DNA from: Fredinandcohnia onubensis
Lineage (GTDB): Bacteria; Bacillota; Bacilli; Bacillales; Bacillaceae_L
Length of the DNA stretch: 64,000 nucleotides
Direction: 5' to 3'
NCBI RefSeq assembly: GCF_031181385.1
Contig: NZ_JAPSKV010000007.1
Location: 1-64,000, forward strand
Positions 43,984 through 54,824 of the stretch are shown here, piece by piece (the stretch's first letter is position 1; each line of letters opens with the position of its first letter). Both the position numbers and the translations under genes were made by a program. The notes beneath the pieces are model-generated. The model saw only the letters and a list, made by a program, of their open reading frames with translations, was not told the origin of the DNA and searched no databases.

Positions 43984-44085
43984 AGGTCGGTACTCCTTTC
44001 CTTGGCTTTGTGCTTAGTGTTTTCGAAGTTTTTGCGGATTATCCTTCCTTTTATTAGAAATTTCTCGTAGCACGAAACAGGCATA

Positions 44086-44116
44086 CAAAAAGCCTTCCGG
44101 TTCATCCGGAAGGCCG
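44086..44116 (-). terminator. Terminator of the yczE-like gene
   Basis: GCCTTCCGG and CCGGAAGGC flank TTCAT; on the minus strand it is followed by TTTTTG. Confidence 0.85.
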
Positions 44117-44117
44117 A

Positions 44118-44747
44118 CTAACTAGTTTTCGGTTTTGGCCTGAAGCCGAAGCCCTTTTCCATTAACCTTTCACAATGTGGATAGAAGAATTGAATAATTG
44201 GTCCGATTCCGAATGTAACTACCAAAGTTCCAATGCCAATAGGTCCCCCAACCAAAAGAGCTAACACCAAGCCTGTCGCCTCGCCAATTGTTTTCGAAAT
44301 CCCAAATCTCAACTTGAATCGCTTGCTGATCGCGAGCATAAGATTATCGAGTGGTGAGAGTGGAAACTTTGCTTGCAGGTAAATGGCAATCCCTAGTGAT
44401 GCAATCACTAACCCTCCAAGCAAAACAAGAGCTTTCACGACGAAACCTTCTAAATTCATTTCATCGAGTGCAATTAATAGCCAAAAATCTATAAAAAAGC
44501 CAATTAAAATGATTGTGCCAATTGATAAGTATGCTGGCCGTTCCTTAAGTAAAAATGCATTTAAAAGCATGACAAAAATACCAACAATAATAACCCAATT
44601 TCCTACAGTAAGGCCGATTAACTCTGAGAGTCCAACATTGAGAGCGTCCCATGCCCCAGCCCCGATATCCGCAATTATCATTAAACTGATTCCCAGTGCT
44701 AAAACAAACAATCCAACGCAAAAGAATATGATACGACGTGTGATCAT
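44118..44747 (-). CDS. YczE/YitT-like membrane protein
   Basis: 209 residues with about five membrane helices and the motif IADIGAGAWDALNVGLSE near the N-terminus and FPLSPLDNLMLAISKRF later, as in the YczE/YyaS family. YczE-type proteins have been linked to secondary-metabolite production, but no biochemical role is known. It is the boundary gene before the variable 44.8-50.9 kb region. Confidence 0.78.
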   Translation of the reverse strand: MITRRIIFFCVGLFVLALGISLMIIADIGAGAWDALNVGLSELIGLTVGNWVIIVGIFVMLLNAFLLKERPAYLSIGTIILIGFFIDFWLLIALDEMNLEGFVVKALVLLGGLVIASLGIAIYLQAKFPLSPLDNLMLAISKRFKLRFGISKTIGEATGLVLALLVGGPIGIGTLVVTFGIGPIIQFFYPHCERLMEKGFGFRPKPKTS

Positions 44748-45089
44748 AGAAGTGCTCCCTAAGATTATTTTTTAAAAGGATAACAATTAGTTTAAACATT
44801 GGATTTTATTATAATCAACTTGAAAAAATTAATCGATATTTTTTCACTTTTTTAAAATTAAATTGAATATTTTTAATGTTGTGTAAATATTATTAAGTAT
44901 ACCTTACTTGAAGGAGGGATAAGGAGACCATACCTTAATGAAGGGGGTATGCTATCGAGTTGCTGGACGAAGAGGACACCAATGAAAAAAAGTTAAGTTA
45001 TCCCTTAAAAAGTACTTAGATGTTTAAAACACCAAACGACTCTGTGTGGATGTTCTACACAGAGTCGTTTTTTTGTCGTTTAAAAAGTG
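44748..45089 (+). ncRNA. Candidate small RNA with sporulation-type promoter (CsfG-like?)
   Basis: No gene fits here, but the plus strand has TGAATA (44864-44869) and AATATTA (44886-44892) with a 16-bp spacer, resembling sigmaF/sigmaG promoters. A foldable body follows: GGGATAA pairs with TTATCCC (44997-45003), enclosing CATACC/GGTATG with the loop region CTATCGAGTTGCTGGACGAA. It ends in the strong terminator AACGACTCTGTGT/ACACAGAGTCGTT with seven T (45033-45077). A 15-codon frame from 44938 is possible. The name CsfG is only a guess from layout. Confidence 0.5.
45033..45077. terminator. Terminator shared by the candidate small RNA and OsmC gene
   Basis: AACGACTCTGTGT and ACACAGAGTCGTT flank GGATGTTCT, followed by TTTTTT. 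A very stable stem. Confidence 0.88.
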
Positions 45090-45476
45090 TTACGCACCTA
45101 CGATTTCGAAGCTTTCAATAATTTCGATGCTTCCCTTTACCGATTGGGCGATCGGACAATTTCGATGAGCGACTTCGATCGAACGTTGTATTTTTTCCTC
45201 AGCTAAATCTTTTCCTTTGATCACATAGTGAATGTAAACTTTCTCGACCCGATTCGCATGTGCCTCATTTCGCTCCACTTCAGTCTTAATGGTGATGTCC
45301 TCTACCTGCATTCTCTTTTTTTCAAGAACCTTACGAAGTGTGCCCCCACTGCAAACTGCGATGGACGAAACTAAAAGCTGATAAGGTCTGAATCCATGAG
45401 CTTCGTCCCCTGCAACCTGCAACTTCCCAAACTCTACATCTGTGTAAAAGCCAACTTCCTGCATCTTAAAAATCAT
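45090..45476 (-). CDS. OsmC family protein
   Basis: 128 residues with the OsmC/Ohr fold: PYQLLVSSIAVCSGGTLRKV contains the first active-site cysteine, and RNCPIAQSVKGSIEI holds the second. Members reduce organic hydroperoxides through a cysteine pair or serve as general stress proteins. AGGGGGC precedes ATG. Single gene with a shared terminator. Confidence 0.85.
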   Translation of the reverse strand: MIFKMQEVGFYTDVEFGKLQVAGDEAHGFRPYQLLVSSIAVCSGGTLRKVLEKKRMQVEDITIKTEVERNEAHANRVEKVYIHYVIKGKDLAEEKIQRSIEVAHRNCPIAQSVKGSIEIIESFEIVGA

Positions 45477-45563
45477 AAAAATGCCCCCTGTCTTTGTCTG
45501 ATATCTTCAGTTTACTCAAATTCTCCATAGAATGAAAAGCAGATTGCATGGTCTATAAAAAAT

Positions 45564-45592
45564 ACCCTTCAAAAAAGTGAGGGGTAAGGTTT
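45564..45592 (-). terminator. Terminator of the propeptide gene
   Basis: On the minus strand TACCCCT and AGGGTA flank CACTTTTTTGA and are followed by TTTTTTA, 25 bp after the stop. Confidence 0.7.
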
Positions 45593-45616
45593 CTCTATTG
45601 TTATAAAAGATTAATG

Positions 45617-45745
45617 TTATAGTTCAACGACATTTGACATTTTGTAAACTGGAGGTAGTTCTGCAAGCTGTTCTCCATTTTGGGCAACCCCCAGTAATAA
45701 TGCCACGCCTAAAGTTACTACTATGATTGAAATTTTCTTTTTCAT
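45617..45745 (-). CDS. Small secreted propeptide, PapR-like signalling peptide
   Basis: 42 codons. The start MKKKISIIVVTLGVALLLGV is a signal-like hydrophobic segment. The remainder, AQNGEQLAELPPVYKMSNVV then EL, would be exported and processed. Size, secretion signal and a hydrophobic Pro/Tyr segment (ELPPVYKM) recall PapR and NprX propeptides. A GGGGGC site precedes ATG and a terminator follows. It is divergent from a PlcR-like receptor gene with a palindrome between, so it is most likely that receptor's cognate pheromone. Confidence 0.65.
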   Translation of the reverse strand: MKKKISIIVVTLGVALLLGVAQNGEQLAELPPVYKMSNVVEL

Positions 45746-45776
45746 AAATAAAGCCCCCGTTTTTTTTATATTTTTA

Positions 45777-45857
45777 GGATCCATTTGGAATCCCTATTGA
45801 ATTTAATATAATATTAATATATTTTTAGAATAGGTGAATTACCCATATTTGGTAATT
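45777..45857. promoter_or_regulatory. Divergent control region of the quorum-sensing pair, with palindromes
   Basis: AATTACC and GGTAATT flank CATATTT as a perfect 7-bp inverted repeat at 45837-45857. GGATCC and GGAATCC form a second partial one at 45777-45793. Both lie between the propeptide and receptor starts and are candidate receptor operators. They do not match the PlcR box consensus exactly. Confidence 0.45.
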
Positions 45858-45943
45858 ATAGATGTATATTACGCTAGATTTCGTCATTTTTACTTATGTT
45901 TCAACAAAAATATAACTATACGCATAAATTAAGGAGTGAGAAT

Positions 45944-46837
45944 GTGGACTTTTCCTTAATAGGTAAAGAGATAAAATATTTAAGAAAGTCTCTAGGATTA
46001 AGCCAAAAGGAACTGAGTGAAGATATTTGTACACAAGCACAAATTAGTAAGATTGAAAAAGGTGAGGTTTACCCACTAGCTCCTACTCTATATCTAATAT
46101 CCAAACGTTTAGGAGTAGATATAAATTATTTTTTTGATATCTCTTCCTCCCCTAATCTTCCTTATGTTAATGAGGTTTCTAATTTACTATTAAAATCTAG
46201 AAGGGAAAGGAATTTTAATGAAATTTGGGAAATTGTAAATCATGAAAAGAAAAATCCTATTTTCAACAAAATTCCTCATAACAAACAATTATTACTCTGG
46301 TATGAAGGTATTTGTTTTTATGAACTCAAAAAGGATAAGAATACTGCACTTAGCTTGTTACAAGAGGCAATCGATCTTACTCGTACCAATGAAAAAGTCT
46401 ATAATGAGCGGGAAATAGAAATATTAAATAGTATTGCAGTCATTTATTATGATAATGAAGAATTTCAAAAGGCGATTGAACTACTAGAGGAGAATTTGGT
46501 ACAACTACAGAGGATACCATACATCGTAGACCCTACTATAAAAACCAGAATTTATTATAATTTAGCTAAATCTTTTACAAGACTTGATAAGTTCCAAGAA
46601 TCATTGGAAATTTGTAATATAGGAATAGATTGGTGTAGACAGAGCAATACCCTTTACCTGTTTGCAGAGCTCCATTATCAAATGGGCTATAATTACGAGT
46701 TATTAAACCAGATTGAACAGGCTGTATTCTATATCGAAAATGCCTATAATATCTTTCTCCTATTAAAGGATAAAAAGTATATTCCATATATGGACAAACA
46801 GTTAGAGAATCTAAGGGGCCTTATGGTGGTAAAATAA
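45944..46837 (+). CDS. PlcR-like quorum-sensing regulator (RRNPP family)
   Basis: 297 residues. An N-terminal Xre-type HTH (IGKEIKYLRKSLGLSQKELS, then ICTQAQISKIEKGEVYP) aligns well with PlcR as I recall its sequence. It is followed by a TPR array with repeats such as NEREIEILNSIAVIYYDNEE, ARIYYNLAKSF-like IYYNLAKSFTRLDKFQESLE and ELHYQMGYNYELLNQIEQA. Such receptors bind an imported peptide in the TPR groove and then DNA. GTG at 45944 behind AAGGAGTGAG is preferred; the ATG at 45896 has no ribosome site. It faces the secreted-protein/ABC operon. Confidence 0.88.
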   Translation: MDFSLIGKEIKYLRKSLGLSQKELSEDICTQAQISKIEKGEVYPLAPTLYLISKRLGVDINYFFDISSSPNLPYVNEVSNLLLKSRRERNFNEIWEIVNHEKKNPIFNKIPHNKQLLLWYEGICFYELKKDKNTALSLLQEAIDLTRTNEKVYNEREIEILNSIAVIYYDNEEFQKAIELLEENLVQLQRIPYIVDPTIKTRIYYNLAKSFTRLDKFQESLEICNIGIDWCRQSNTLYLFAELHYQMGYNYELLNQIEQAVFYIENAYNIFLLLKDKKYIPYMDKQLENLRGLMVVK

Positions 46838-46852
46838 ATAGCATAATCATTA

Positions 46853-46905
46853 AAAATCTATTATAAGGAGTATTTAAAGTTCGCCTTATAATAGATTTAT
46901 CTTTT
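46853..46905. terminator. Terminator between regulator and ABC operon
   Basis: AAATCTATTATAAGG and CCTTATAATAGATTT form a perfect 15-bp stem with T runs outside, ending both convergent units. Confidence 0.88.
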
Positions 46906-46944
46906 AAATGGAGATCCCTAAACGATATAAACTAAGCTTCACCA

Positions 46945-47547
46945 TTAGAGTTTCTTTAAAATAATTGTTAGTTCCTTTGCCTCAACGAATAGAAACTTGT
47001 TTACTTCGAGAATTTGATCTTTTTTCACTTGGATTGTGTGACTATCTGATTTTTCAAATTGATAGCTCTTAAGAACGTCTTTTTTTGAAGATAATACTTG
47101 GATAAAAGGTTTTTCATTTTCTTCTTTTAAACCTGTATAGGTTACCAGGTATTCACCCTCTGGCAGCTGCTCATCCACCTTATAGAATCCTGAATGGGTA
47201 ATATGGAATTCATTAGTCTTAATTTCTTCTAGTTTATTAAAATTTGCGGGAGTCAGCTTTACCTTCCCTTCGCCGTCTAAACTAATATTTTCACCTCTGT
47301 TCAACGTGATTCCTAGAATTTTATCATTATGAGACAGCTGGCGTTGTATGAATGTAAGGTCCCCTTCTATGACATCGATATCATAATTTCCAGGACTAAT
47401 ATCTTCTCCTACCTTGTAATTCCCTTTAACTAGTTCTATCGTTGTTGGAGCATTGTTATCAGTCATATTTTTCACATAAGGATAGCCTAAAAATAGAATG
47501 GTAATAGCTATGATTAAGATAAATATTGTTAGTTTGAACTTATTCAT
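46945..47547 (-). CDS. Membrane-anchored protein with two similar beta modules
   Basis: About 200 residues. One N-terminal membrane helix (FKLTIFILIIAITILFLGY) anchors an extracellular part with two alike modules: YKVGEDISPGNYDIDVIEGD and YKVDEQLPEGEYLVTYTGL. The G-x-Y-x-VGxDI-x-PGxY pattern occurs in surface proteins of Gram-positives. It overlaps the ATPase gene by a few bases. In this operon it might act as an immunity or export-partner protein; that is inference. Confidence 0.6.
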   Translation of the reverse strand: MNKFKLTIFILIIAITILFLGYPYVKNMTDNNAPTTIELVKGNYKVGEDISPGNYDIDVIEGDLTFIQRQLSHNDKILGITLNRGENISLDGEGKVKLTPANFNKLEEIKTNEFHITHSGFYKVDEQLPEGEYLVTYTGLKEENEKPFIQVLSSKKDVLKSYQFEKSDSHTIQVKKDQILEVNKFLFVEAKELTIILKKL

Positions 47548-48169
47548 CGAATAACTCACCGTCTGCCATTCTTAATGTATGATCACATAAAGGTGCTATA
47601 TCCTCCTTATGGTGGCTAGCAACGATAACAGTGGCACCCCTCTTTTTCTCATTTAGTAGGATTTCGTGAATTAATTCTACTCCTTTATCATCGATAGCGT
47701 TTGTGGGTTCATCAAGCAATAATATATCTGGTTTTTCGAAAATAGCTTGTGCAATATTTAGCCTTTGTCTCATACCGAGTGAGTATTTTTTTACCTTTAG
47801 TTTAGAATGTGGGTCTAGACCTACCTTCTCTAGAGCTTCTATAATGTCATCCTCGGTCGCTATATTTTTAATTTTTGATAGAATCAAAAGGTTTGTAAAC
47901 GCGTCATATTGGGGTAATAACTCCATATTTTCAATAATAATCCCTACGCTTGGAGGAAAAGAGATATCTTTATTCAATATCTTATTATCAATTATGATGT
48001 TGCCTTCAGTAGGAATGACTAAACCTGCAATTGACCTTAATAGCATGGTTTTGCCTGATCCATTCTTACCAAAAAGCCCGTACATTTTTCCACTTTCAAA
48101 TCTATATGAAATTTCATTCAAGACATAACTTTGTTTGATTTTTTTACTGATATTATCAAGCTCTATCAC
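47540..48169 (-). CDS. ABC transporter ATP-binding protein
   Basis: 209 residues. Walker A GLFGKNGSGKTML, signature YSLGMRQRLNIAQ, Walker B ILLLDEPTNAID and the switch histidine in VIVASHHKEDI are intact. It is a short bacteriocin/lantibiotic-immunity type ATPase. The start is GTG behind AAAGGGAG. It pairs with the three membrane proteins encoded just upstream. Confidence 0.9.
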   Translation of the reverse strand: MIELDNISKKIKQSYVLNEISYRFESGKMYGLFGKNGSGKTMLLRSIAGLVIPTEGNIIIDNKILNKDISFPPSVGIIIENMELLPQYDAFTNLLILSKIKNIATEDDIIEALEKVGLDPHSKLKVKKYSLGMRQRLNIAQAIFEKPDILLLDEPTNAIDDKGVELIHEILLNEKKRGATVIVASHHKEDIAPLCDHTLRMADGELFDE

Positions 48170-48182
48170 AATAACACTCCCT

Positions 48183-48911
48183 TTAAAGATCCATTTTTTT
48201 TACTCTTTTCACCACAAGAATAGATATTAGTAGTAAATCAATAACAAGAAATAATAAGCACTCTATATAATTAAATTGAATAATATCCATTTGAAATGTA
48301 GAAATAATAGTTAATCCATTTTTAAAACCCATACCAATATTAGGCATAAATATGTATTTTACGAATTGGGGAAGTTGATAATTTATCATTCCATTTACTG
48401 CAAGAATAGAAAATATTATATATAGATTCACAATTAACAACGATATTTCAGGCTGTACAAATAAATCAAGTAATGATTGAATGCTAAACAAAATGAACAA
48501 TGTTAAATAATATAAAATAAAAAGTTTCATGAAATGCACAAATGTAAAGGACAATTCTGTTGGTGTAAATAAATTTATTACGGTCTGAAAACAAACAAAC
48601 AAAAATAAATGGAATGAAATGGAAAATAATTGTTTGTACACCCATTTTTCCTTGCTATAGCTTCTAACAAAAAAAGACGGACCATAGTTTGTAATCGCAG
48701 TACTTAAAAAGCCCGAAAAATAAAAACTCATTCCTATTATTGGGATGTACCAATTTAATAAGTACCTAAAGTTTAATGATTCAGATGGTGTAATCGGAAC
48801 ACCATCAAGAAACGGAAATTTAGAATGGATCAATTCAAATCGATTGATTACAATGGCCTGTATAATAATGGTGAAAAGTACAAAAATGAATAACCTCTTT
48901 TTTTGTAGCAT
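48183..48911 (-). CDS. ABC-2-type membrane protein, third of the set
   Basis: 242 residues with about six hydrophobic segments (LFIFVLFTIIIQAIVI, FILFSIQSLLDLFV, CLLFLVIDLLLISILVV). No motif beyond the permease-like pattern. Its ATG overlaps the preceding gene's stop by one base, implying coupled translation and stoichiometric assembly. Likely a channel subunit for the adjacent ATPase. Confidence 0.65.
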   Translation of the reverse strand: MLQKKRLFIFVLFTIIIQAIVINRFELIHSKFPFLDGVPITPSESLNFRYLLNWYIPIIGMSFYFSGFLSTAITNYGPSFFVRSYSKEKWVYKQLFSISFHLFLFVCFQTVINLFTPTELSFTFVHFMKLFILYYLTLFILFSIQSLLDLFVQPEISLLIVNLYIIFSILAVNGMINYQLPQFVKYIFMPNIGMGFKNGLTIISTFQMDIIQFNYIECLLFLVIDLLLISILVVKRVKKMDL

Positions 48912-49639
48912 TACATGTAATCCTTTCTTTGAAATACCGATGAACTAATTAGATAAATAAAGATTACAATCAACAATTGTCTTACATAGGTATAATTAAC
49001 ATCCATTAAACCCCATTCGCCTTGCAATAGTTTCGTATAGATAACTAGATCCTTTAATGGACCCCAGGTTTGATTGAAGACTAATTTTTCAATAAAAAAT
49101 AACCCACCTATTAACAAAAGTGTCAATATCAGGGGCAACCCACTGGATCTAAACTTATCACCTAATAGCTCATACAACAGTCCAATGAATGTATAGAAAA
49201 GGAATAACCCCACCATATTACAGAAACTAACAAAGGTGAAATTCATTTCTTTCAAGACACTATTTTCTATATAGATCGATGTCAATCCTAAATTAACAAG
49301 GGTATGGATGAGAGAGAAAATAAACGCTGCGAACATTCCCTTTACTACCCTTGCTTTAAAAACTCCATCTCTAGATTTACTTCTAACCAATACTTCTAAA
49401 CTCTCAGGACGATAGAATAGGTTATAAAAGATAATAAAAGGTATCGTATAAAATAAGGTATAAGCTTGAATTGAACTGTAGCCAAACGCACTATTATTTA
49501 AAAGAATTACAACATCATATAATGTTAAATTTGCAGATTTAATAAAATTGATATCCAGACTATTGCTACTTTGAACGTTCCAAAGAAAGATAAAAAAGAA
49601 AATGGTACTACTAATTAATATTGTCCTTCTAATCCACAT
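48911..49639 (-). CDS. ABC-2-type membrane protein, second of the set
   Basis: 242 residues, about six hydrophobic segments (TILISSTIFFFIFLWNV, LILTLLLIGGLFFIEKL, LLIVIFIYLISSSVF). Length equals the next protein and layout is similar, suggesting an ancient duplication. It overlaps the upstream gene by 11 bp. Function inferred only from context. Confidence 0.65.
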   Translation of the reverse strand: MWIRRTILISSTIFFFIFLWNVQSSNSLDINFIKSANLTLYDVVILLNNSAFGYSSIQAYTLFYTIPFIIFYNLFYRPESLEVLVRSKSRDGVFKARVVKGMFAAFIFSLIHTLVNLGLTSIYIENSVLKEMNFTFVSFCNMVGLFLFYTFIGLLYELLGDKFRSSGLPLILTLLLIGGLFFIEKLVFNQTWGPLKDLVIYTKLLQGEWGLMDVNYTYVRQLLIVIFIYLISSSVFQRKDYM

Positions 49640-50408
49640 TGAATTTTACCCCGTAAATAAAAACTAGTAATGGTATGAAAGTAAAAATGGCAATCGCCAA
49701 TAGAAAAATTGGCATTAAGATGTTTAAACCGAATTCAGCAAATGGCTGGAATAAATATGTAATAGATTGTTTATTTAGAACTAATAGAAACCATATAAAA
49801 AAGGCGGAAGGATATGCATATTTTTTATCTCCGAAAAACAGGCTGGTACTAGCTCCTAACATACCTACAAACCCTGCCAATATAATGCTTACAATTGAAA
49901 ATACTCCTATTGCTAAATATGGATGGGAAATACTGAAACTAAAAAGTGGGTTATCAGAGATCTCCATATCGGTTAAGCCCTTTGTAAATGTTCCATTGTA
50001 GAAAATAATTCTTACAAGGATAAAATTAACGAATAGTGTAATGGCCATAACCGCCGAAGATAGTATAAATGAGGTACTTAATTTCTCAAGTATATATTTT
50101 TTTCTCCCTACCTTACTAATAAGGATATTTCTGTACCCTGTCTTATAATCCTGAATCGCATCATCCGCACCTAGTAGCAGAAAGTAAATCGGAAAAAACC
50201 ACAATAGTAGGATTTGAGACGCATGTCCTATACTCGAGCCGCTAAGAAAAAAGGCAAATGCAGGATGAAAGACTTGTTCAGACGTCTGTTGATACTGTAA
50301 CAGCTGAAAAATTTCAATCATGGGTAGAAATAAAATAATAAAAAATGAAAAGATACTAATTTTGTTTTTTACAATACGGTACATATGACTTTTAAACATT
50401 TCAATCAC
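49629..50408 (-). CDS. ABC-2-type membrane protein, first of the set
   Basis: 259 residues, about six hydrophobic segments. A charged loop ADDAIQDYKTGYRNILISKV before a helix is typical of ABC-2 permeases that carry YKxGxxxxLxS(K/R) motifs. It lies behind a hairpin that follows the secreted-protein gene, so its level is probably lower than that of the secreted product. Confidence 0.68.
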   Translation of the reverse strand: MIEMFKSHMYRIVKNKISIFSFFIILFLPMIEIFQLLQYQQTSEQVFHPAFAFFLSGSSIGHASQILLLWFFPIYFLLLGADDAIQDYKTGYRNILISKVGRKKYILEKLSTSFILSSAVMAITLFVNFILVRIIFYNGTFTKGLTDMEISDNPLFSFSISHPYLAIGVFSIVSIILAGFVGMLGASTSLFFGDKKYAYPSAFFIWFLLVLNKQSITYLFQPFAEFGLNILMPIFLLAIAIFTFIPLLVFIYGVKFNVD

Positions 50409-50430
50409 TCAATTCTGTAATTTTTACAAA

Positions 50431-50468
50431 GGAACAAAAGTGATAACTAAATTATCACTTTTGTTGTT
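50431..50468 (-). terminator. Attenuating hairpin behind the secreted-protein gene
   Basis: ACAAAAGTGATAA and TTATCACTTTTGT enclose CTAAA. The T content after the stem is modest, so partial readthrough into the transporter genes is likely. Confidence 0.7.
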
Positions 50469-50471
50469 TAA

Positions 50472-50894
50472 TTATTTCGTTTCTTCGTCCCAATAACCAC
50501 TTATTGAATAGCTGTTAGCTGAGTAATTATTGTTTTCAGCACCTAATCTTACATAGCTTTGACTTGCTGTGCTAAATGCATCTGTATATTCTGTAGTTCC
50601 TTGCGTAATGTTGTTAGTATCAGAAACTCTTGTTCCACTCTTATCTAACCAAAATGTTGCAACTGTTCCTTTACCTTCAGACGAGTATGCATAGTTTACC
50701 TTCCATTGATTTTTTGTATTAGTCGTTTGACGATATCTTGAATCAGTATAAGTGTTCCCATGATAAGGTTTTAGACTAAAGCTAAATCCAATATTGTCAT
50801 TTGATGCATAAGTAAAGTTTGCGGTTGCCAAAATACCAACCCCCATTACTGCTGCAAGTCCAACCTTACTAAATTTTTTTGCGAAATTCTTCAT
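50472..50894 (-). CDS. Small secreted protein (DUF2712-like), possible bacteriocin
   Basis: 140 residues. Signal peptide MKNFAKKFSKVGLAAVMGVG to FTYA is followed by NDNIGFSFSLKPYHGN, RYRQTTNTKNQWKVNYAYSS and GKGTVATFWL. That pattern recalls DUF2712 proteins, found beside ABC transporters in Bacillus. The size and export resemble lactococcin-972-type secreted proteins, but the typical motif of that family is not seen. ATG at 50894 lies behind AGAGGGAG. It is the first gene of the operon that faces the PlcR-like regulator. An antibacterial or surface role is possible. Confidence 0.68.
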   Translation of the reverse strand: MKNFAKKFSKVGLAAVMGVGILATANFTYASNDNIGFSFSLKPYHGNTYTDSRYRQTTNTKNQWKVNYAYSSEGKGTVATFWLDKSGTRVSDTNNITQGTTEYTDAFSTASQSYVRLGAENNNYSANSYSISGYWDEETK

Positions 50895-51121
50895 AATACT
50901 CCCTCTTTCCATGTTTATTTTTAATACACGTTTACCTTATCATCTTTTAAATAAAGTCAAATTCCCCGTTTTACACTGATATTTGATGTATTGAATCAAC
51001 ACCTTCATTTACTCCTATCAATTATCGAAAAATATAACTTTAGGAATAAGTCTTTTCCATTTCCAACCCCTCATTAATTTTGTATCATTAGATTGTGAAT
51101 TGAAACTGGGGGAAAAACAAC

Positions 51122-52285
51122 ATGAGATTAAGGTTTTGGATATTAGTTAGTATTGTTGCAGTTTCTGGGTTTAGCCAGGGTATGTTGCTTCCTTTGATTG
51201 CGGTTATTTTTGAAAATAACGGAATGTCATCTACCTTAAATGGATTACATGCAACTGCACTATATATCGGAATATTACTTGTTTCGCCATTTATGGAGTA
51301 TCCGCTAAGGAAATATGGCTACAAACCTGTCATTCTATTTGGGGGATTGCTCGTTGTCGTGTCACTTGCCTTGTTCCCATTATGGAAATCATTTTGGTTT
51401 TGGTTTGTTCTTAGACTCTTAATCGGAATTGGGGATCACTCCCTACACTTTGGAACACAAACATGGATAACATCATTTTCTCCTGAGAATAAGCGTGGAA
51501 GAAACATTTCCTTATACGGATTATTTTTTGGGCTTGGCTTTGCCACTGGGCCGTTAATGACACCTTTGGTTAACATTAATGAAACCCTGCCATTTATTCT
51601 ATCTTCTGTCCTTTGTTTAATTGGTTGGTTCTTTTTATTCCTATTAAAAAATGAGTTTCCGGAACAAGATTTAGGGGTGAACTCCTTTAGAGAGACATTC
51701 AATCGTTTTTCAAAAGCCTGGAAGTATGCATGGGTTGCGTTTCTACCGCCACTCGCCTATGGTTTTCTCGAGTCCTCCCTTAACGGAAGTTTCCCGGTTT
51801 ATGGATTACGAATTGATTTAAATGTAGGATTTGTTTCGATTCTATTAACTTCATTTGCGCTCGGTAGCATCGTTACCCAGCTTCCATTAGGTATTTTAAG
51901 TGATAAATTTGGTCGAAGAAATATTTTAATGATTGTACTGTTTTTAGGATTTTTATGTTTTACCATCGCAAGCTTCCTTGAGCACTCTCATGTCGGGCTT
52001 TGGCTCTGCATTACTTTTGCGGGAATGGCAGTTGGATCGACGTTTTCACTCGGAATCTCTTATATGACAGACTTAATGCCAAAGAATTTATTGCCGACCG
52101 GAAACCTTCTATGTGGAGTTTTCTTTAGCATCGGAAGCCTTGTCGGACCGTTTTTCGGAGGACTGTTTATCCAATACTTTGAAAGCATCAGCTTTTTCAA
52201 TGTCATAGGGACAATTCTGTTTTTAATACTTATCATTCTATCTGTCTTTGGTACAAGAACGGCAACTAAGACAGTTGAAAATTGA
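51122..52285 (+). CDS. MFS transporter (YfkF-like)
   Basis: 387 residues, twelve membrane helices. The MFS motif LGILSDKFGRRNILMIVLFL lies in the second half; LRLLIGIGDHSLHFG and KRGRNISLYGLFFGLGFATG in the first. Drug-efflux-like. Its position between yfkD and yfkHIJK-like genes is that of yfkF in B. subtilis, so orthology is plausible. GGGGGAAA precedes ATG. Confidence 0.8.
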   Translation: MRLRFWILVSIVAVSGFSQGMLLPLIAVIFENNGMSSTLNGLHATALYIGILLVSPFMEYPLRKYGYKPVILFGGLLVVVSLALFPLWKSFWFWFVLRLLIGIGDHSLHFGTQTWITSFSPENKRGRNISLYGLFFGLGFATGPLMTPLVNINETLPFILSSVLCLIGWFFLFLLKNEFPEQDLGVNSFRETFNRFSKAWKYAWVAFLPPLAYGFLESSLNGSFPVYGLRIDLNVGFVSILLTSFALGSIVTQLPLGILSDKFGRRNILMIVLFLGFLCFTIASFLEHSHVGLWLCITFAGMAVGSTFSLGISYMTDLMPKNLLPTGNLLCGVFFSIGSLVGPFFGGLFIQYFESISFFNVIGTILFLILIILSVFGTRTATKTVEN

Positions 52286-52347
52286 CTTCCTTTTTAGGGA
52301 GTCTTTCTTATTTTTTATGATTTTCGGCCTATTTTTCAGAATCTTAT

Positions 52348-52377
52348 TGACGTTTTTCGAAAATCTGTTATATAATA
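52348..52377 (+). promoter_or_regulatory. SigmaA-type promoter of the small BH0509-like gene
   Basis: TTGACG and TATAAT with an 18-bp spacer; the predicted transcript starts about 60 bp before the AAGGGGATG ribosome site. Confidence 0.65.
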
Positions 52378-52444
52378 CATTAAAGATTAATGCACTGTAT
52401 TAAAACAGATGTGTAGGACGAAAAAATTTAAGGGGATGATTGTA

Positions 52445-52591
52445 ATGAGTAGGCAAGAACGCAAAAACATGATGGAGTTTATTGAGAAGGTTAAGGGCAT
52501 TACTAAAATGGAGCTTATGTATATGACCGATGCAGATATCGAGCATATCTATAACACCACTTATTTTCACTTTGAAGAAATCGCAGAATAA
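52445..52591 (+). CDS. Small BH0509-family protein
   Basis: 48 residues: MSRQERKNMMEFIEKVKGIT then MTDADIEHIYNTTYFHFEEI. The pattern matches a short uncharacterised family of Bacilli (BH0509). ATG at 52445 lies behind AAGGGGATG; a longer upstream frame is not supported. It has its own promoter and terminator. Role unknown. Confidence 0.65.
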   Translation: MSRQERKNMMEFIEKVKGITKMELMYMTDADIEHIYNTTYFHFEEIAE

Positions 52592-52599
52592 AGAAGAAG

Positions 52600-52636
52600 A
52601 ACAACTCGTCCTTCGTTGGCGAGTTGTTTTTTTATG
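52600..52636 (+). terminator. Terminator of the BH0509-like gene
   Basis: AACAACTCG and CGAGTTGTT flank TCCTTCGTTGG and are followed by TTTTT. Confidence 0.85.
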
Positions 52637-52695
52637 TTCTTACAAGCTTATTTAAAATTATTATAAAAAACACTTTTAAAAATCGGGTATTGTGT

Positions 52696-52716
52696 TATAA
52701 TTAATAATAATTATAA
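52696..52716 (+). promoter_or_regulatory. Extended -10 promoter with PerR-like box
   Basis: TGTTATAAT is an extended -10. The following TAATAATAATTATAA matches the PerR box TTATAATNATTATAA at all but one position and covers the predicted transcript start. This fits PerR repression of the metal ATPase gene. Confidence 0.7.
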
Positions 52717-52778
52717 AGTGAAAATCAATTAAATTAGTGACTGCTATCGAAAAGATTGCAGTTTTCTTGTTTAAACGG

Positions 52779-52871
52779 CTTATTGATTGTGATTCCCTTT
52801 CTCAATTAGCATTATCAAGTTGATTTTTATTCTCAATTAGATATGGATAATTGATTGTTTTTCTCAATTAG
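52779..52871 (+). repeat. Three 31-bp direct repeats in the ATPase leader
   Basis: CTCAATTAG recurs at 52801, 52832 and 52863, exactly 31 bp apart (three helical turns). In the last two units it ends TTGATTTTTATTCTCAA and TTGATTGTTTTTCTCAA, partial inverted repeats resembling Fur-type sites (12 of 14 and 10 of 14 positions of TGATAATNATTATCA). They lie just upstream of the GGAGG site. Confidence 0.65.
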
Positions 52872-52889
52872 AAAATGGAGGCGAACGAA

Positions 52890-54824
52890 ATGAATACTGA
52901 AATAAAGACTGCTCCAAGACGACAGCAACTATATAATACAGATACTGAATCTTCCCCACTCCTTGAAAAAGTAAGGCTTCACGGTGAATTAATAGCAGCG
53001 TTAACGAGCGGCGTTTTAATTGCATTTGCCTGGACATTAGGACATTTCGAACACAGTACCGCTTCAATTGTTATATATCTTCTTGCATTTGTGATTGGTG
53101 GTTTTGCTAAAGCAAAGGAAGGTATTTCTGATACGATTGCGGAAAAAGAATTAAATGTAGAAATGTTAATGATTTTTGCGGCAATTGGCTCTGCAATCAT
53201 TGGATACTGGAATGAGGGTGCGATTTTAATCTTTATTTTCGCATTAAGTGGCGCTCTTGAAACCTATACAATGAATAAAAGTCATAAGGAAATCTCTTCA
53301 CTTATGGGCCTTCAGCCTGAAGAAGCAACCCTTGTAGCAAATGGCATCGAGAGAGTCGCCCATGTTTCTTCTCTTCAAATTGGCGATGCGATTTTAGTTA
53401 AACCAGGTGAGCGCATTCCAGCTGACGGTAAGCTTTTAAAAGGTGACACTAACGTGGACCAAGCGGCTATTACAGGTGAATCAATTCCTGTACGCAAATC
53501 CCTAGGTGACGATGTGTTTGCCGGGACAGTTAACCTTCGTGGGTCCATCACTGTTGAAGTGACAAAGCCAAATGAGGATTCGTTGTTCCAAAAAATCATA
53601 AAGCTTGTACAATCGGCTCAAAGTGAAAAGTCCCCTTCCCAGCAATTTATTGAAAAATTTGAAGGTACGTATGTTAAGTTTGTTTTAATTGCGGTAGGTT
53701 TAATGATGTTCCTTCCACACTTCTTATTAGATTGGACATGGACCGAAACCTTCTACCGCGCAATGATTTTATTAGTAGTTGCGTCCCCATGTGCTTTGGT
53801 TGCCTCCATTATGCCAGCAACATTATCGGCGATTTCAAATGGAGCAAGGCGTGGGATCCTGTTTAAAGGTGGTGTTCACCTTGAGCAGTTAGGTAATTTA
53901 AAAGCTATTGCATTTGATAAAACAGGGACACTGACAAAAGGAAAACCTGTTGTAACTGATGTAATTGTTTCCGATTCAATTGATTACAACGAATTTTTAC
54001 AAATTGTAGCTTCAATTGAAAATCAGTCCACACATCCATTAGCACAATCAATCGTGAATCATGCTAAGTCAAATGGTCAGGAGCTAATTTCTATAGATAG
54101 TATTGAGGATATGCCTGGATATGGGGTTAAAGCAACTGTCGGTGAGACTCATTGGTCAATTGGTAAAGCTGATCTTGTCGGAAAAGAAGCTGCAGTCACT
54201 TTTAAAAATGGTGCTGCGAAACAATTGGCTTCTGAAGGCAAATCGATTGTTTATGTAAAATCAGGTGACAATATTGCGGGGATTCTCGCACTCAAAGACG
54301 TTGTCCGTGATGATACAGTTTCAGCTATTTCTGACATAAAAGACCTTGGGATTTATACAGTTATGCTAACTGGAGACGGTGAAAAAACTGCTGAAGCCAT
54401 TGCGGCCGAAAGTCATGTTGACCAACATATTGCTGAATGTTTGCCAGAAACAAAGGTGAACCACATCAAAGGACTTATTTCAAAATACGACACTGTTGCC
54501 ATGGTTGGGGACGGAATCAATGATGCACCTGCTTTGGCTACTGCAAATGTTGGGATTGCGATGGGTCAAGGAACGGACGTTGCCCTTGAAACTGCTGATG
54601 TTGTGTTGATGAAAAATGACCTTCCGCGAATTGCTGAAGCCGTAAAACTTTCAAAACGCATGAACCGGATCATTAAACAAAATATTATTTTTTCTATCAG
54701 TGTGATTATGCTATTAATCCTGTCAAACTTCTTTCAAATCATTGACCTCCCATTTGGCGTCATTGGCCATGAAGGAAGCACCATTCTCGTTATTTTAAAT
54801 GGACTTCGCTTGTTGAAGCCATAA
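52890..54824 (+). CDS. P1B-type metal-exporting ATPase (PfeT/ZosA-like)
   Basis: 644 residues. P-type landmarks: TGES in ITGESIPVRKS, membrane metal motif SPCALVAS (SPC rather than CPC), phosphorylation site FDKTGTLTKGKP, HP motif STHPLAQS, GDGIND in VGDGINDAPAL, and a C-terminal HEGSTILV. SPC plus HEG(S/G)T marks the P1B-4 group that exports Fe(II), Co or Zn. No N-terminal CxxC metal-binding domain is present. The PerR-like box and Fur-like repeats upstream support an iron-efflux role, as for B. subtilis PfeT. ATG lies behind GGAGG. Confidence 0.85.
   Translation: MNTEIKTAPRRQQLYNTDTESSPLLEKVRLHGELIAALTSGVLIAFAWTLGHFEHSTASIVIYLLAFVIGGFAKAKEGISDTIAEKELNVEMLMIFAAIGSAIIGYWNEGAILIFIFALSGALETYTMNKSHKEISSLMGLQPEEATLVANGIERVAHVSSLQIGDAILVKPGERIPADGKLLKGDTNVDQAAITGESIPVRKSLGDDVFAGTVNLRGSITVEVTKPNEDSLFQKIIKLVQSAQSEKSPSQQFIEKFEGTYVKFVLIAVGLMMFLPHFLLDWTWTETFYRAMILLVVASPCALVASIMPATLSAISNGARRGILFKGGVHLEQLGNLKAIAFDKTGTLTKGKPVVTDVIVSDSIDYNEFLQIVASIENQSTHPLAQSIVNHAKSNGQELISIDSIEDMPGYGVKATVGETHWSIGKADLVGKEAAVTFKNGAAKQLASEGKSIVYVKSGDNIAGILALKDVVRDDTVSAISDIKDLGIYTVMLTGDGEKTAEAIAAESHVDQHIAECLPETKVNHIKGLISKYDTVAMVGDGINDAPALATANVGIAMGQGTDVALETADVVLMKNDLPRIAEAVKLSKRMNRIIKQNIIFSISVIMLLILSNFFQIIDLPFGVIGHEGSTILVILNGLRLLKP

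Follow-up and report, generated by a model that had tools for sequence, protein, structure and literature searches.

A 64,000-nucleotide stretch of the Fredinandcohnia onubensis genome (contig NZ_JAPSKV010000007.1, positions 1 to 64,000), hereafter the window, carries a PlcR-type receptor gene, a divergent gene for a small secreted propeptide and a facing DUF2712 operon. Together these genes probably constitute a peptide quorum-sensing switch like PlcR/PapR, with a divergent layout, an operator of its own and a target operon. The divergent peptide with its ELP core and the 22-bp operator are conserved beside related receptors, and the operator also stands before the DUF2712 gene in some genomes. 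A wider proposal seems to us about evenly balanced, namely that the receptor represents a large unnamed Bacillales PlcR subfamily with a divergent pheromone gene, often multi-copy precursors (up to 14 copies) and a single 22-bp operator that differs from the PlcR box, and that in some lineages, the window's included, it controls, whether in cis or in trans, a secreted DUF2712 antimicrobial and an ATP-binding cassette (ABC) immunity complex.

A first-pass annotation of the window had described a 42-residue secreted propeptide divergent from a PlcR-like receptor, on which open reading frame (ORF), Pfam and fold evidence now agree, and a facing operon for a DUF2712-like secreted protein, three membrane proteins, an ATPase and a membrane-anchored protein, which is as described. 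The features of the locus are as follows.

45617..45745, minus strand: secreted pheromone propeptide, 42 amino acids, MKKKISIIVVTLGVALLLGVAQNGEQLAELPPVYKMSNVVEL; ORF with a poor Shine-Dalgarno sequence
45644..45664, minus strand: predicted mature signal AELPPVY, residues 28-34 of the propeptide; one copy of the sister-genus repeat unit, of putative length and cleavage
45837..45857: palindrome AATTACC-N7-GGTAATT, perfect 7+7; not conserved
45908..45929: operator 1, AAATATAACTATACGCATAAAT, centre 25 bp before the receptor start; top motif site in the 64-kb window
45944..46837, plus strand: PlcR-type receptor with helix-turn-helix (HTH) and tetratricopeptide repeat (TPR) domains; GTG start, alternative ATG at 45896
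46854..46898: terminator-like hairpin, 15-bp stem, between the convergent 3' ends of receptor and operon
46945..47559, minus strand: N-terminally membrane-anchored protein, last operon gene; ORF, homologue in 12/13 other DUF2712 operons
47540..48169, minus strand: ABC transporter ATPase; Pfam PF00005 2.7e-32, in 13/13 other DUF2712 operons
48183..48911, minus strand: DUF2705 membrane protein; Pfam PF10920 5.7e-42, in 12/13 other DUF2712 operons
48911..49639, minus strand: WxPxxD family membrane protein; NCBIfam NF035952 1.5e-70, in 13/13 other DUF2712 operons
49629..50408, minus strand: membrane protein 1 (ABC-2-like); DUF2705 similarity 0.0014, below cut-off, homologue in 13/13 other DUF2712 operons
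50472..50894, minus strand: DUF2712 protein with a signal-like N-terminal segment, operon gene 1; Pfam PF10916 9.4e-30, 14 homologues aligned
51030..51051: operator 2, AAATATAACTTTAGGAATAAGT, centre 146 bp before the DUF2712 start; second-best motif site in the window

The receptor and its divergent signal peptide

The receptor matched the Pfam domains HTH_3 (2.3e-13) and RNPP_C (1.1e-12), and both sequence and fold comparison gave the PlcR fold, an N-terminal HTH with a TPR domain, as in PlcR-type RRNPP receptors. In the Foldseek list, PlcR ranked above Rgg by score. With a small Sec-type propeptide gene beside the receptor, as is characteristic of RRNPP systems, the system is by its sequence a PlcR-type member of this kind. 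The listed start is the ATG at 45896; the GTG at 45944 is the likelier one, because a strong Shine-Dalgarno sequence, AAGGAGTGAG, precedes it and homologues mostly align from about that residue. PlcR holds Glu6 of PapR via Lys89, Gln237 and Tyr275 (PMC6568020; here and below, statements from cited papers refer to the available parts of their text). The equivalents of Lys89 and Gln237 in the window receptor are Arg and Glu, so that these Glu6 contacts are not reproduced, and position 89 is variable across the subfamily. Since the contact residues differ and the predicted signal AELPPVY has no Glu at position 6, a receptor subfamily with its own specificity fits. By analogy with PlcR, the receptor would bind the mature peptide via its TPR domain.

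In its own genus, the receptor was found in the window genome only (1/9 genomes; E 1e-20), and in the family in 6/17; in an even sample of the order it was present in 174/396 genomes (E 1e-25). We examined 61 receptors in fetched loci, a sample biased toward near kin because the loci were chosen mostly from best matches. At 38 of the 61 receptors, we found a small ORF in divergent orientation that begins like a signal peptide, and 36 of these ORFs have an [E/D]LP core; this count leaves out locus L061, in which the script-called ORF is an ordinary 129-amino-acid protein. The remaining receptors had tandem (6) or convergent peptides (3, one belonging to a neighbouring receptor), or no peptide by our screen (14). 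A quick receptor tree placed the tandem receptors to one side of a branch, and layout scored as divergent or not required 9 changes on it, compared with 18.8 in shuffles. A further 20 loci, containing 22 receptors, yielded 16 divergent pairs. The divergent layout, initially taken for unusual, is thus frequent in this subfamily, although it goes against the rule in PMC9765709, by which the pheromone gene of a Bacillales system lies directly downstream of the receptor gene.

Receptor matches also occur on mobile elements, with 46 matching records in a plasmid collection and six among phage records. Six of the plasmid records were inspected, and a divergent peptide and an operator (21.6 bits) occurred together in one of the six plasmid receptors, that of Niallia taxi pMEGANia (L162). 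On plasmid pBpOF4-01 of Alkalihalophilus pseudofirmus OF4 (L164), a PlcR-like receptor lies near a gene annotated as TOMM precursor leader peptide-binding protein, with a 46-amino-acid divergent ORF between them. Three PlcR-like receptors stand in a row at L087 (G084:C2:445000-460000), with no adjoining propeptide by the screen; these are possible eavesdroppers. A separate group of tandem-layout receptors (L003 8307-9430 and L093) has GLPTQH- or GIPSEH-type signals, some of them multi-copy, and lacks the 22-bp operator.

The window propeptide, whose signal segment was judged by a simple hydrophobicity score, contains a single signal copy and a C-terminal extension. The four nearest receptors (52-54% identical) face divergent precursors with 4, 6, 8 and 9 signal cores, mostly AELPPIYKPSSLGLV-like units; the repeat units are AELPPIYKPSSLGLV-like in L055, L057 and L058 and AELPPVY in L056 (sister genus). 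The last 15 residues of the window propeptide, AELPPVYKMSNVVEL, resemble one sister-genus repeat unit, and other subfamily precursors end exactly in ELPPVH, ELPSVY, ELPPLF and similar sequences. On the basis of the repeat units and these exact ends, the constant part is [A]ELPPVY, which aligns with the PapR7 peptide ADLPFEF (PMC6568020). The mature signal is therefore probably the internal AELPPVY, its exact ends being predicted from sequence, and not the C-terminal 5-8 residues of the propeptide, as had been supposed. More copies were seen elsewhere: the precursor divergent to the receptor at L089 (G114:C1:3696800-3711800) has 14 copies of a AELPTMYNVKPTQV-like unit, exceeding the six reported in the available part of a published survey, and that of L085 has five copies of another unit, EAIPFPPRMLNVGNEVA.

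A 22-bp operator of the subfamily

Expectation-maximisation on the receptor-peptide gaps returned a palindrome far above three shuffles. The resulting 22-bp model, built from 27 gaps with the window left out, reads AAATATtnCTATAGnaATATTT. When the 64-kb window was scanned, 45908-45929 scored 15.52 bits and 51030-51051 scored 15.49 bits, the third-best site reaching 10.8; on a fixed background, both window sites score 16.8 bits. A site of at least 14 bits was present near the start of 35 of the 38 divergent receptors, most of which are training loci for the model, of 7/14 receptors without a found peptide and of none of the nine tandem or convergent ones (0/6 tandem). Among later-fetched divergent pairs, many of them close kin of training loci, 15 of 16 had the operator. 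The operator mostly lies ~145-175 bp before the propeptide and DUF2712 start codons, while in three training gaps the strong site is only 31-56 bp before the peptide.

Two other candidates for the operator were rejected. The PlcR box TATGnAnnnnTnCATA was not enriched (mean 7.50 in the 38 full gaps, 7.32 with a standard deviation of 0.10 in shuffles); the best match in the window was 8/10, and the only perfect box among the 38 gaps was in L101. The palindrome at 45837-45857, proposed in the first-pass annotation as lying between propeptide and receptor, does exist there and is the sole zero-mismatch match in the window, in which up to three mismatches gave 4 matches with 7.3 expected by chance. 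As a shared operator it failed, since across 32 other intergenic regions of divergent pairs the closest matches had no fewer mismatches than those in shuffles; the conserved operator is that at 45908-45929.

L101 (G033:C73) is a natural contrast to the window's subfamily: upstream of its receptor is a perfect PlcR box, TATGAAAATATACATA, its divergent PapR-like peptide ends in DALPFEH, and the 22-bp operator is missing. Strong operator matches near receptors were also found in L081 before 6511 (21.4 bits), in front of a presumably galU-like gene, and in L095 near 5645 (18.9 bits), at a lipoprotein-like gene. Judged by these matches, the two genes are possible further targets.

The DUF2712 operon as a candidate target

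The operon unites a PF10916 protein with DUF2705, WxPxxD and ABC ATPase genes, the set by which such operons are recognised. Receptor and operon converge tail to tail, and the 78-nt stretch 46838-46915 spanning the hairpin between them gave a fold z of -4.25. Another hairpin, of 14 bp (50433-50465), separates DUF2712 from the gene for membrane protein 1, placed as though to yield more DUF2712 than transporter message. An Rfam scan of 44000-53000 found no match, and a PADLOC scan of 6 proteins gave only HTH-type matches and one weak Csx1-type match, all on the receptor.

The operon looks like a secreted effector with ABC protection, which is the weakest step of our reading. With somewhat less than even credence, DUF2712 and its partners may instead be a density-controlled module for the envelope or a surface protein. 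The DUF2712 protein had no Pfam match outside its own family and no solved relative (best E 0.36), and its single-sequence structure prediction reached a predicted local distance difference test score (pLDDT) of 45, which is not a usable model; moreover, three membrane proteins and one ATPase could form an exporter. However, DUF2712 has its own signal-like N-terminus and should therefore need no ABC exporter, and the best NCBIfam match of the ATPase is the lantibiotic-protection ABC ATPase TIGR03740, a likeness only, at 154.6 bits with the cut-off at 309.75. The DUF2712 family is also present in the B. subtilis control genome, in which we take yybN to be the DUF2712 gene and yybN-yybJ the matching operon. 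The sboA, sunA and sdpA units of B. subtilis are antimicrobial. The yybN operon is tabled as a Rok target beside these three units (PMC2978689), which argues for the reading as effector and protection.

DUF2712 was detected in 14/396 genomes of the order sample, 9 of which also have the receptor and 5 of which do not. Wider searches found it in 1/36, 2/18, 1/2 and 3/398 genomes, nearly all previously found. A plasmid collection gave three records, the third being a Listeria chromosome, and the promoters of the two Priestia records scored 12.0 and 2.6 bits; a scan of viral contigs found no DUF2712 relative. Among the 14 DUF2712 loci, receptor and operon stand side by side only in the window and in G330, in which a distant receptor (29% identical), a 17.8-bit operator, a propeptide ending in DDLPFEH and the DUF2712 operon follow in a row, the peptide and operon on the same strand. 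The DUF2712 promoter site scored 16.8 bits in the window, 19.5 in G283, 14.4 in G391 and 14.2 in G092, and lies 146, 145, 182 and 148 bp from the DUF2712 start, respectively. In the window, G283 and G092, the operator is an island of identity within diverged DNA (15/22 columns, compared with 4/60 and 15/120). The 17-18 kb surrounding the operon in G092, G283 and G391 contain no receptor, so that any control in these genomes would have to act in trans. With G330 set aside, the other eight receptor-positive operons gave a combined p of 7e-5 for sites; that of the five receptor-negative ones, in which no site was found within 300 bp before DUF2712 (best 4.6 bits), was 0.57. These results suggest that the DUF2712 operon is under receptor control.

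Such control could also be exerted by a repressor that the peptide relieves, the DNA-bound apo-receptor keeping the operon off at low density, a possibility that we regard as unlikely. Operator 1 lies ~25 bp before the receptor start and over a weak -10-like TATAAC, the usual place for autorepression. Against it, PlcR, the closest characterised relative, is activated by its peptide (PMC2464732, PMC6568020), and a site ~145-175 bp before most propeptide and the DUF2712 start codons would suit an activator better.

Several observations weigh against our proposal. None of 52 receptor loci has the operon nearby, and conserved physical linkage was thus rejected. Sites matching the window DUF2712 score occur in 7 of 645 unrelated upstream regions (2 for G283, 8 for G391 and 8 for G092). 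In four of the nine receptor-bearing DUF2712 genomes (G304, G362, G180 and G160, the last with a different operon gene order), there is no clear promoter site. Three receptor-less genomes do have sites at other places: 549 bp upstream in G236 (15.3 bits), and within the operon in G137 (18.0 bits) and G172 (15.6 bits). A plain count test, 5/9 against 0/5 with G330 counted positive, gave a p of 0.063. Genome-wide, the operator pattern was not enriched over control (43 and 31, compared with 36 and 44), and among the 57 distinct places that the own-genome pattern search returned, all scored, two others reached 17.4 bits, slightly above the 16.8 bits of the window sites; the propeptide's Shine-Dalgarno sequence is poor. 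A single site thus proves little, and because the own-genome search was at chance level, the case for the target depends on where the sites lie and how they are conserved among genomes.

Much of this would be expected if the quorum pair of receptor and peptide is real but the DUF2712 operon just happens to lie beside it, with an operator-like site that arose by chance in AT-rich sequence. We nevertheless consider this coincidence distinctly improbable, as sites at 145-148 bp recur in three genomes, including the window, whose promoters have otherwise diverged, none of the five receptor-less genomes has a site within 300 bp, and G330 shows direct linkage. That operator 2, its centre ~81 bp before the start codon of the divergent major-facilitator gene at 51122, serves this gene instead is very improbable, and the gene was rejected as a conserved target, since G092, G283 and G391 lack a gene of this kind facing the site, and the neighbour that they have in common is the DUF2712 gene.

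As to the self-contained cassette of the first-pass annotation, the 52 receptor loci show that it is not a fixed unit. Of the support expected from conserved linkage and an operator upstream of 50894, only the operator (51030-51051) was found. The refuting condition set in that annotation gave a mixed result, since co-occurrence held in 9/14 DUF2712 genomes and failed in 5/14, with adjoining copies in two. Peptide control of the operon gained from the operator evidence and from G330, and lost from the four receptor-bearing genomes without a clear site.

Proposed switch and its relation to known systems

In the switch that we favour, the 42-amino-acid precursor would be exported by Sec, and a cut on either side would free a short signal, for which AELPPVY is the best candidate. 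Once re-imported, this signal would bind to the receptor's TPR domain. As a dimer loaded with peptide, the receptor is then expected to occupy 22-bp palindromes (AAATATaaCTATAGgaATATTT) in the receptor-propeptide gap and in front of the DUF2712 operon, and to activate both the propeptide gene and the operon. As the first site sits between receptor and propeptide, the circuit would feed back on itself; as it also overlaps the -10-like box, the receptor perhaps limits its own gene. The operon would supply DUF2712 as a secreted protein, together with a membrane complex of ABC type that probably shields the producer. We infer that the peptide is processed and imported, that the receptor binds the operator directly and activates transcription instead of repressing it, and that the ABC proteins are protective.

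The window system shares with PlcR-PapR of the Bacillus cereus group the HTH and TPR receptor fold, a small exported precursor, the signal core (ADLPFEF in PapR7, AELPPVY here) and the TAT-N10-ATA frame of the PlcR box. It differs in that the precursor gene is divergent and upstream, whereas PapR lies downstream, in an operator core that is CTATAG-like instead of the PlcR box, and in its target, the DUF2712 operon. PlcRa of the PlcRa-PapRa system of B. cereus is a PlcR paralogue with a heptapeptide signal (CSIPYEY, from a 93-amino-acid precursor), but no conserved DNA motif was found for PlcRa in the available part of PMC3519770, in contrast to the strong operator here. Precursors with several signal copies are known from a survey (PMC9765709) and from the Rap systems of two phages (PMC11343458); in the subfamily, sister-genus precursors have up to 9 copies and that of L089 has 14. 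In streptococcal Rgg-SHP pairs, a small peptide ORF also lies upstream of the receptor, but SHPs (short hydrophobic peptides) are smaller and exported by PptAB, according to the available part of a published survey. For the yybN-type operon, Rok control is described and a quorum receptor is not mentioned in the available part of PMC2978689.

No report of a divergent PlcR layout was found in the literature searched, although the orientation figures of two large surveys, which were unreadable, may record it; nothing was found on DUF2712, and a WxPxxD match was unrelated. The RRNPP kind and multi-copy precursors are known. As far as this literature goes, it is new that PlcR-type pairs stand divergently and share an operator, and so is the connection with DUF2712. 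The locus provides a PlcR-type system with receptor, signal and operator open to testing, and its layout departs from the downstream-pheromone rule published for Bacillales (PMC9765709). It offers a first hint at how the uncharacterised DUF2712 operon may be regulated, next to its known B. subtilis relative, and the operator motif allows target prediction across many genomes.

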